This document shows, piece by piece, positions 36,516 through 39,510 of a DNA stretch of 64,000 bases; the first letter of the stretch is position 1, and the number at the start of each line of letters is the position of its first letter. The stretch covers positions 48,780,796 to 48,844,795 of the forward strand of contig OX485807.1 of assembly GCA_950295325.1 (NCBI GenBank), read 5' to 3'. The notes under the pieces were generated by a model. That model was not told the origin of the DNA. It saw nothing but the letters and a program-made list of their open reading frames with translations, and made no database searches. The translations under genes were made by a program, and so were the position numbers. Source of the DNA: Polytrichum commune. Lineage: Eukaryota; Streptophyta; Polytrichopsida; Polytrichales; Polytrichaceae.

Positions 36516-37114
36516 ATTTTTTTTCATTTTCATGATGAATTAGTACAAGTGTTCATAAGATGGTCAAAGTGAAACAATAAAGATAAAATATAAAACCTAT
36601 ACTAAAATTTATTAATTTTTTATGTTTTAGACAATGTTATATGAAGCATAAATAAATGATATATTATTTAGAATTAGACTTGTGGGATAACGTTATGGAT
36701 GGGGTATACTCAAGAAATCATAAGTTTCTAATTATATCCTATATGAGTTATTATAATATCTTATCATCATCGCATATTATATTATGTTTAAAATCATATA
36801 ATGCATATTAGTCATTTTCAAATAATTTTCATTATATTTGTATATATATATATTATATATATATATATTTTGAATTTAACAATTTATCATAAGGTGACAT
36901 AAATTATTTTGATATATTACAAATGATTGAGAAATCATATCCGTGCAAAATAAATGAGTTGTGACTAAATAAATGTCTATAAAAACATGTCATAACCACA
37001 TGTTAGACATGTTCATAATTTGTAATATTTATCAAAATAACCATGTGGAATCTACATCCACATCATGGCCTTGAAAACAACTCATTGGAAGTTAGAAAAT
37101 AGGCTTAGGGCATC
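36516..37114. other. AT-rich spacer, no gene
   Basis: Very AT-rich DNA with a (TA)n tract at 36,840-36,870. No coding or repeat structure beyond that is seen. Confidence 0.6.
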
Positions 37115-37918
37115 TGTTACGAACCTCTCACCAGTTGGCAATTTGTTTCTTGACAACAAAATCTCAAAGTAAAGAATTGAAACCAACACCAATTTTATTC
37201 CTTCCTCTAAGTACAAACCGTAACCAAATAAAGTTGGGTCAACGAAGCTCTACCACCCAACCATAGGAGAGAGACAAAAAAAATCCTCTCTCCTCCCCCG
37301 AGCTTCCTCTTATGCCGAAGCACTACTTTTACTTTCTATATTTACATATAGTAAAAGTATTCTATTCATAGCTCTATCTCATAGTTCTACTATGAATCTT
37401 CTATTTTTGGTTCTTCTAGAACCTTCTTTCATCTCTTATCTCAATTCCATTCTTCCAATTGGAACTATCTAATTCCAATTGTATTCATCCATTCTTCTTT
37501 CTAGTTGGAACTGTCTAATTCCAACTAAATACATCCATCCTTCATTCCAGTTGGAACTGTCTAATTCCAACTTGGTTCATCCAACCTTTCTCTTGGTTGG
37601 AATTGTCTAATTCCAACTAATTCAATCTTCTAGTTGGAACTGTCTAATTCCAACTAGCTTTATCCATGGAGTGGTCTAACTCCTGTGCACCTCATCGAGA
37701 GTTGTCTAACTCACGTGCACATGTTCTCACTTGGAATGGTCTAGTTCCAATGCACTAAATGCGGAGCTGTCTAACTCCAGTGCACATGTTGTCAATCTGG
37801 AGTTGTCTTACTCCTTTCCATTCATCCTCAACTGAGAGTTGTCTAGCTCTCATCTTTTTCTGCTTACACACTGGCACATGTAGTTAGAATATTCCTTAAT
37901 AATTCTAGTTACATTACA
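37115..37918. mobile_element. Solo LTR (804 bp) with perfect 5-bp target duplication
   Basis: It starts TGTTACGAACCTCTCACC and ends TTACATTACA, with TG...CA termini, and is flanked by GCATC at 37,110-37,114 and 37,919-37,923. No primer-binding site, polypurine tract or gag-pol is adjacent on either side, so it is the product of LTR-LTR recombination. Orientation is not certain. The family (copia or gypsy) cannot be told from the LTR alone. It contains the hairpin array at 37,456-37,851 and further short palindromes at 37,320-37,360 and 37,411-37,425. Confidence 0.9.
37456..37851. repeat. Array of eleven covarying short hairpins with GTCT core
   Basis: Units lie at 37,456, 37,504, 37,550, 37,596, 37,633, 37,668, 37,698, 37,731, 37,763, 37,799 and 37,834. 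Each is two inverted arms around a short core, mostly TGTCTAA. Arms differ between units yet stay complementary: GTTGGAA/TTCCAAC (units 2-5), GGAG/CTCC (6, 9, 10), GAGAG/CTCTC (11), TTGGAA/TTCCAA (8). Unit 4 is a nearly perfect palindrome, GTTGGAATTGTCTAATTCC then AAC. Spacers of about 15-30 bp are not conserved, apart from GTGCACATGTT-like pieces. Confidence 0.9.
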
Positions 37919-38300
37919 GCATCCAAAGCCACATCATAGCCCATTGCCAACTAATTGATATTTATATAATAGCTAGTAGTTCATAATAGCTATAAGGGAG
38001 AAAAAGGGTCTTACATGCCAACTCAGAGGTGTTTCACTAAAGTTAGCTCCATCCGAGCTTCTTGATGAACTCATCTGATTTTTGTTACCGGATGATTTTA
38101 CTTGAGTGCCACGAATCCCGGCCTACTAGTAGTAGTGAATAGGAGCTGTGTGAAACAGTAGGAAGCTTACTTTGGAGTCATTCTAAATCCGACCAGTCTC
38201 GTCTAATTAAGATAATTAAGGATGTGGATACTAATTAAGAGGAGCATCTCCACACGTTCCCATGAATATTATACTTATTGAGTTGCTGAAAAACAACATA

Positions 38301-38530
38301 CAACACTAAATATTCTTGTATTTAGTGTCACCTACTACTTGGAATCACGCAATGCTCTAATTGTTTATTGTATATCTCATTTTTTGGCTAATAAACGGTC
38401 AAATTGGTTGTTTGGATGTTATAGGACATTAACATTTTTACCTGGTAAAAATCTACATTAATAGGGAGAAAAGAATAGCATTGTGTAACTCCAAATAGTA
38501 AGTCACACTAAATATCATATCTAGTGTAGT
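38301..38530. mobile_element. MITE of the AAGTGACACTAA family
   Basis: ACACTAAATATTCTTGTATT, then TAGTGTCACCTACTA, is mirrored by TAGTAAGTCACACTAAATAT then CATATCTAGTGT. The centre TTGGTTGTTTGGATG matches 26,711-26,932. Confidence 0.78.
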
Positions 38531-39228: not shown

Positions 39229-39510
39229 GCCCATTAGCTAGCTGGGCTAGCCCATATTTTTTGAAGCCTCAATCTAGCCATAGCTAGGCTAGCCCATATT
39301 TTCTAAGGCCTCGATCTAGCCATAGCTAGGCTAGCCCATATTTTTTGAGGCCTCGATCTAGCCATAGCTGGGCTAGCCCATTTTTTTCGGGTACCGTTTT
39401 AAGCCATATAGCTGGACTATTTGACCTAATAAATTAATTCATGTAGCTCATATAATGAATTCAAGGAGACATTGTCTCATCAATACAATCATATTTCATA
39501 TCAGTCAAAA

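Follow-up and report, generated by a model that had tools for sequence, protein, structure and literature searches.

The closest described systems to the array reported here are the long terminal repeats (LTRs) of Sireviruses, in which palindromic repeated motifs, most with a CGG-CCG signature, lie upstream of the TATA box (Bousios and colleagues, PMC2829016). According to the available part of that paper, these RM boxes occur in 3 to 14 copies per 3' LTR (Table 3), are absent from the other Ty1/copia elements compared and are reported as Sirevirus-specific, and the authors suggest a role in regulation; variable LTR motifs are also mentioned for the Tnt1 superfamily. In maize Sireviruses, small RNAs map in excess to the clusters of palindromes (Bousios 2016, according to the available part of PMC10760457). 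For chromoviruses, no report of a palindrome array was found in the open-access literature searched (titles and abstract openings). The word 'palindrom' is absent from the main text of the LORE1 paper (PMC2832683) and from that of an LTR survey (PMC3601003), and in the available text of the Retand paper (PMC11963269) it occurs twice, in a reference title.

The window analysed here is a stretch of 64,000 nucleotides from Polytrichum commune (contig OX485807.1), and all coordinates below refer to it. A preliminary description had recognised a solo LTR, and its borders agree: a single LTR runs from TG to CA at 37115-37918, a direct GCATC duplication lies on both sides and the internal region is absent. 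No second family copy lies near it among the matches listed (at least 41), and the other copies align to about 37117-37918, ending within a few bases of the LTR borders or short of them. The LTR and its parts, apart from the array, are:

37110-37114, no strand: target-site duplication GCATC, left, identical to the right copy
37115-37918, minus strand (element sense): solo LTR of a Ty3/Gypsy chromovirus, 804 bp, recognised by TG...CA, the flanking GCATC and other copies
37194-37199, minus strand: AATAAA, possible polyadenylation signal, LTR position 720
37324-37359, minus strand: palindrome enclosing a TATA-like stretch at 37337-37350, LTR position 569
37414-37426, minus strand: motif of the type GAANNTTCNNGAA, LTR position 493
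37919-37923, no strand: target-site duplication GCATC, right, identical to the left copy

Read in element sense, the order is the array (LTR 66-461), the GAANNTTCNNGAA motif (493), the TATA-like stretch (569) and AATAAA (720). Since element sense is the minus strand, the array sits in U3, between the polypurine-tract (PPT) end of the LTR and the TATA-like stretch. The TATA-like stretch and AATAAA presumably serve the promoter and polyadenylation. The GAANNTTCNNGAA motif, which we take to be a form of the three-part heat-shock element (HSE), precedes the TATA-like stretch by about 65 bp and is present on either strand in 38 of 47 aligned LTRs, with one further match in the remainder of the window. 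ONSEN-like heat-responsive LTRs carry a heat-shock element in U3, as the window LTR appears to do at LTR position 493, and its chromovirus family could be heat-induced. Two further palindromes had been described in the LTR and both were found, at 37324-37359 and at 37409-37423, the latter overlapping the GAANNTTCNNGAA motif; covariation was not seen by eye in 22 LTRs for these palindromes near the HSE-like and TATA-like motifs. Outside the LTR, the window holds a direct repeat with 42-bp spacing at 39239-39386, with three in-register copies around TAGCTRGGCTAGCCCATATTTT, and a 38-nt inverted repeat (38319-38356 and 38477-38514; 84% complementary, 120 nt apart) that is perhaps a small inverted-repeat element.

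Eleven palindromic units had been claimed for this LTR, and eleven were found at 37458-37853, at most two bases off the span first given. In element sense they read:

37458-37479, minus strand: unit ATTGGAATT AGAT AGTTCCAAT, nearest the TATA-like stretch
37504-37525, minus strand: unit GTTGGAATT AGAC AGTTCCAAC
37550-37571, minus strand: unit GTTGGAATT AGAC AGTTCCAAC
37596-37617, minus strand: unit GTTGGAATT AGAC AATTCCAAC, with perfect 9-bp arms
37633-37654, minus strand: unit GTTGGAATT AGAC AGTTCCAAC
37665-37686, minus strand: unit ACAGGAGTT AGAC CACTCCATG
37695-37716, minus strand: unit ACGTGAGTT AGAC AACTCTCGA
37730-37751, minus strand: unit ATTGGAACT AGAC CATTCCAAG
37760-37781, minus strand: unit ACTGGAGTT AGAC AGCTCCGCA
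37796-37817, minus strand: unit AAAGGAGTA AGAC AACTCCAGA
37832-37853, minus strand: unit ATGAGAGCT AGAC AACTCTCAG, the first after the LTR start in element sense

The four arm types named in the preliminary description (GTTGGAA/TTCCAAC, GGAG/CTCC, GAGAG/CTCTC and TTGGAA/TTCCAA) are all present, and the core that it described as persistent is so in 10 of 11 units, which have GTCT on the plus strand, the unit at 37458-37479 having ATCT instead. The spacing is irregular, as had been noted, with a 46-bp period detected by TRF over 37459-37653 only, and the G-T pair reported in the last unit is there as T-G on the plus strand, which is C-A in element sense. When Watson-Crick cells at pairs 3-8 are counted over the window's units, arms match their own partners in 59 of 66 cells, against 45.6 ± 3.7 with swapped partners, a level reached in 13 of 20,000 shuffles. 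The 396-nt array folds with z = -8.06 on the minus strand and z = -7.73 on the plus strand, none of 100 shuffles being as stable on either. The window array is CpG-poor (3 CpG in 398 bp, observed/expected 0.20).

The genome was searched with the window LTR (408 Mb, 64 contigs; the best 40 of 1330 candidates were scored). The window LTR family occupies at least 41 genomic places, the window's own included, and the array of a sister subfamily at least 40; older relatives exist. Among the matches listed, 11 pairs of LTRs are separated by about 5.30 kb and a further pair by 7.1 kb, which is the spacing that full elements would give. The search for a full-length element, suggested earlier as a way to name the family, was carried out, and coding content was read in one full copy on C7, as three separate pieces (L069, L002 and L068). 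On its minus strand this copy carries gag and protease (L069), then reverse transcriptase (RT) and RNase H in an uninterrupted frame (L002), then an integrase (L068) with zinc-binding, rve and SH3 domains, of which rve scores 25.1 bits, under its cut-off of 32.6. A chromodomain (PF00385; 31.2 bits, cut-off 25.1) stands at the integrase end, at residues 440-487 of the L068 frame. This is the domain order of a Ty3/Gypsy chromovirus (gag, protease/RT/RNase H, integrase), the group to which the window LTR belongs, as judged from the one full copy examined. Beside the LTRs of the C7 copy, on the minus strand, are TGGTATCAGAGC, which we take to be the primer site (PBS) for initiator tRNA-Met, and the purine-rich tract GGAAGGGGGAGA; PPT, PBS and RT frame thus all lie on the minus strand. 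The two LTRs of this copy are identical over 803 bases and some family copies keep a long open frame, from which we infer recent activity. The window copy, identical to L001 at 782 of 804 aligned positions, is probably older.

How far the units extend among relatives was read from loci beside related RT matches (the best 150 of 1746 candidates were scored). Of 18 such loci only L079 and L080, beside matches at 90% and 94%, contain units, and the remaining 16, beside matches at 83%, 68-75% and 54-59%, contain none. In five of these 16 (L070-L073 and L075) the LTR region was located by a pol-end motif shared by the family; the LTR is unplaced in the other 11, so absence there carries no weight. 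The nine units of L080 (C2:42562050-42564150) and the 94% RT match beside them are not in the expected relative orientation, the units being on the other strand, and an inverted or nested copy is possible. Two unit clusters about 5.3 kb apart occur at 15.88 Mb of C1 (the L056 region), where no RT match was found among the best 150 of 1746 candidates; the region is possibly a non-autonomous or decayed element. Beside related RT matches of 54-57% identity, long palindromes of other kinds occur in L084, L086 and L087 (one example is around GGACTTCCAT..ATGGAAGTCC), and several are common to L084 and L087.

For the main analysis every TAGAC[AC] in 129 loci was taken on the strand with more hits, the arms not being consulted; that strand has 903 core hits and the opposite one 28, and the set reduces to 430 units distinct on 9+4+9 letters. 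L002, L068, L069 and the 16 loci lacking units are not among the 129, and units with another core, such as the window's AGAT and AAGAC units, fall outside the set. A first set, likewise detected by the core only, held 172 distinct units from 67 loci. In this set 748 of 1204 cells at pairs 3-9 are Watson-Crick with their own partners, against 599.7 ± 12.5 with swapped partners. Detection by arms only, over 68 whole loci, yielded 272 distinct stems where block shuffles contain 152.8 on average; the words most often enclosed are AGAC (14) and TTAGACAG (10), and stems enclosing AGAC or AGAT make up only 67 of the 272 in a search that covered whole loci rather than arrays alone. The strict pattern GGARYTGTCTARYTCC, with purine-pyrimidine matched arms, has 1403 matches in the genome and its reverse has 3.

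In the null model each column is simulated independently on a tree, with its own composition and number of changes. Two trees were used, one of the units and one of the 60 flanking bases only (428 units, two without full flanks being dropped); the unit trees are built on short sequences and are poorly resolved. The covariation test that the preliminary description had proposed, run as a generic G-test with APC on the 172 units, placed the stem pairs no higher than the tree null (pair 3 best, E of about 1 per null alignment). Scores that count complementarity were adopted after this test, a choice not fixed in advance. With them, covariation over pairs 3-9 of the 430 units scores 0.728 on the unit tree against a null of 0.248 ± 0.071, reached in none of 400 simulations, and 0.730 on the flank-only tree against 0.286 ± 0.050, reached in none of 300; the observed total pairing is likewise never matched by the independent-column simulations on the two trees. 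In a control over pairs 3-8 with the arms slid against each other, the score of the true register was reached in none of 300 simulations and those of eight slid registers in 39 to 210 of 300. Among single pairs on the unit tree, 3, 4 and 7 covary most strongly (reached in 0, 2 and 4 of 400 simulations), 8 covaries less (19 of 400) and 5, 6 and 9 weakly, and the flank tree gives a similar picture. The first unit illustrates such a change between subfamilies, with GAGAG/CTCTC in the window, GGGAG/CTCCC in L049, L051 and L060, and GGGAG/CTCCT in L035, L054 and L067.

These simulations bear directly on whether the array is the plain decay of a tandem row of one perfect palindrome, its structure unconstrained, a reading which had been set against the structural one from the outset. 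Tandem duplication is evident at the 46-bp spacing, and recent change mostly breaks pairs: terminal branches show 269 pair breaks against 72 repairs and internal branches 128 against 60 (430 units, means of 20 reconstructions), part of the excess being expected on both since most cells start paired. In family A (32 LTR copies, pairs 2-9, cells differing from the commonest state, related copies counted separately) 50 cells lose a matched pair, 5 exchange one matched pair for a different one, 41 gain a match and 14 remain unmatched. Yet independent-column evolution never reaches the observed pairing or covariation on either tree, and own partners exceed swapped partners in the window alone; because complementarity exceeds what column composition and relatedness provide, pure decay is disfavoured and we regard it as very unlikely.

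The preliminary description had gone further and attributed the compensatory change to selection on structure. Complementarity beyond column composition and relatedness bears this out, as do the many loci in which the repeated unit has stems that differ but still match, whereas an excess of compensating events is not seen: pair switches along lineages number 115 on the flank tree against 98.1 ± 15.5 (reached in 10 of 60 simulations) and 64 on the unit tree against 57.1 (20 of 60), and changes to both sides of a pair on the same branch number 6 against 4.6 ± 2.1 in the 430 units. In the 172-unit set such double changes numbered 9 against 2.1. The double-change counts come from a first null that moves substitutions between columns; it loses column composition and overstates the pairing deficit, so that its Watson-Crick counts are not relied on and the covariation rests on the independent-column simulations instead. 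Since neither switches nor double changes are in excess, the covariation goes back to old classes of units that were kept matched, and many recent compensations are not its source. Selection on structure is the likeliest reading of the covariation, and others remain beside it.

One of these is a mutational origin, in which template switching at hairpins during reverse transcription or replication perfects palindromes without selection. Template-switch correction of quasi-palindromes is a known process, every cycle of reverse transcription offers an opportunity for it, and the double changes in the 172 units (9 against 2.1) are of the kind that it would leave. However, changes to both sides on one branch are expected under this process, yet the larger set shows no surplus of them (6 against 4.6 ± 2.1), breaks outnumber repairs on terminal branches (269 to 72), and pair 2, adjoining the AGAC centre, should be corrected too but is unpaired in about half of the units. 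We therefore consider a mutational origin distinctly improbable.

Pair 2 also bears on whether the units act as RNA hairpins, an option that the preliminary description had left standing beside dyad binding sites. In the genomic RNA, U3, which is present at the 3' end, would then fold into a row of stem-loops; their AGAC loop would be read by the silencing machinery, by Gag or by an RNA-binding protein of the host, and the stem would need only to pair. Arms that covary around a constant centre are what such a structure predicts, with covariation beyond relatedness (none of 400 and none of 300 simulations) as would be expected of a structured RNA, and the sense strand folds stably (z = -8.06). 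If the sense RNA is selected, G-U should be tolerated more than A-C, and the 172 units hinted at this: at pairs 3-9, G-T occurs in 105 cells and A-C in 75, where swapped arms predict 140.4 and 140.0, and changes from a matched pair on internal branches number 22.9 to G-T and 10.6 to A-C (terminal branches, 30.4 and 36.0). With 430 units the preference is gone, G-U no longer being tolerated above A-C on the RNA strand: internal branches give 37.0 to G-T against 42.4 to A-C, and pairs 3-6, which at no time showed a G-T excess over swapped arms, contain 143 cells with left G/right T against 139 with left A/right C. Since the early hint vanished in the larger set, RNA structure is left without special support. 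At the loop-adjacent pair 2, moreover, only 207 of 430 units are Watson-Crick, there is no covariation among the 430, and C-A mismatches (85) outnumber T-G (58). The antisense strand folds nearly as well (z = -7.73), and an Rfam search at E up to 1 gave two matches far below gathering score, which we take as chance. RNA hairpins are accordingly an unlikely explanation, if the foremost of the alternatives. Rather less likely again is that the units are stem-loops selected for their structure, whose invariant AGAC loop is read single-stranded, either in genomic RNA or in cDNA, by Gag or integrase of the element itself; the units in U3 could then be, for instance, a signal for packaging or recognition present in many copies. 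No signal of this AGAC stem-loop kind in plant chromoviruses was found in the part of the open-access literature searched. The hairpins could also be mainly a source or target of host small RNAs, their structure persisting for another reason, as the small-RNA excess on the palindromic clusters of maize Sireviruses might indicate (Bousios 2016, via the available part of PMC10760457); silencing alone would select against the structure, and we give this idea little credence.

The equal numbers of G-T and A-C and the similar folds of the two strands mildly favour a role at the DNA level, although neutral decay gives equal numbers too. The reading that we prefer, with belief and doubt about evenly balanced, is that the array is a DNA-level cis-regulatory block of dyads in the promoter region (U3) of a chromovirus. 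The units would be DNA sites of dyad symmetry, approximately GGAR-N8-YTCC around a constant TAGACA centre, to which a host protein would bind, contacting both halves and the centre, and the array would act on transcription. Tandem duplication would have multiplied the units, and classes with changed yet matched halves would have been retained since an unmatched site would work less well, the matching being selected at the level of DNA. A promoter role fits, because the array lies upstream of the HSE-like and TATA-like motifs. An ordinary dimer site has constant half-sites and a freer spacer; against a plain dimer site, the asymmetric centre of the unit is constant as well. The dyad reading must also assume that the halves are coupled, because independent half-sites need not covary. 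The 1403 strict matches in one genome, with their matched classes, form a natural mutational data set, to which one can put the question of what the palindrome is for: a DNA dyad, an RNA hairpin or a silencing target.

Among known systems, Tnt1-type elements (Ty1/copia) resemble the window LTR in having repeated regulatory motifs in U3, in an unrelated element; their repeats are fewer than in the window array, and we know of no covarying arms among them. LORE1, a plant chromovirus, shares the Ty3/Gypsy affiliation, the chromodomain and an LTR with U3, and a palindrome array is not described for its U3 in the available text (PMC2832683). Sirevirus RM boxes are the nearest likeness: as in the window array, many short dyad-symmetric palindromes are clustered in the LTR upstream of TATA (PMC2829016, in the part available), here as eleven units at LTR 66-461 before the TATA-like stretch at 569. 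The preliminary description knew of no named LTR family with this design, which is right for the precise form, since a constant centre with covarying arms was not found in the literature searched, but similar arrays are known in another retrotransposon group, analogous Sirevirus motifs being in print (PMC2829016). The differences are several. Sireviruses are Ty1/copia, whereas the array bearer is a Ty3/Gypsy chromovirus by its domains and their order; the units are GGAR...YTCC around TAGAC in place of a CGG-CCG core. According to the available part of PMC2829016, Sirevirus half-sites are shared and the intervening bases differ, whereas here it is the TAGACA centre that stays constant, with arms that group into matched classes; Sirevirus motifs border CpG islands, whereas the window array is CpG-poor (observed/expected 0.20); and Sirevirus arrays start at 200-400 bp, against 66 bases into the LTR here. 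By this analogy the array most likely works like the Sirevirus arrays without being one of them, and its presence in a chromovirus, with a different motif, suggests convergence of unrelated LTR retrotransposons on one promoter design.
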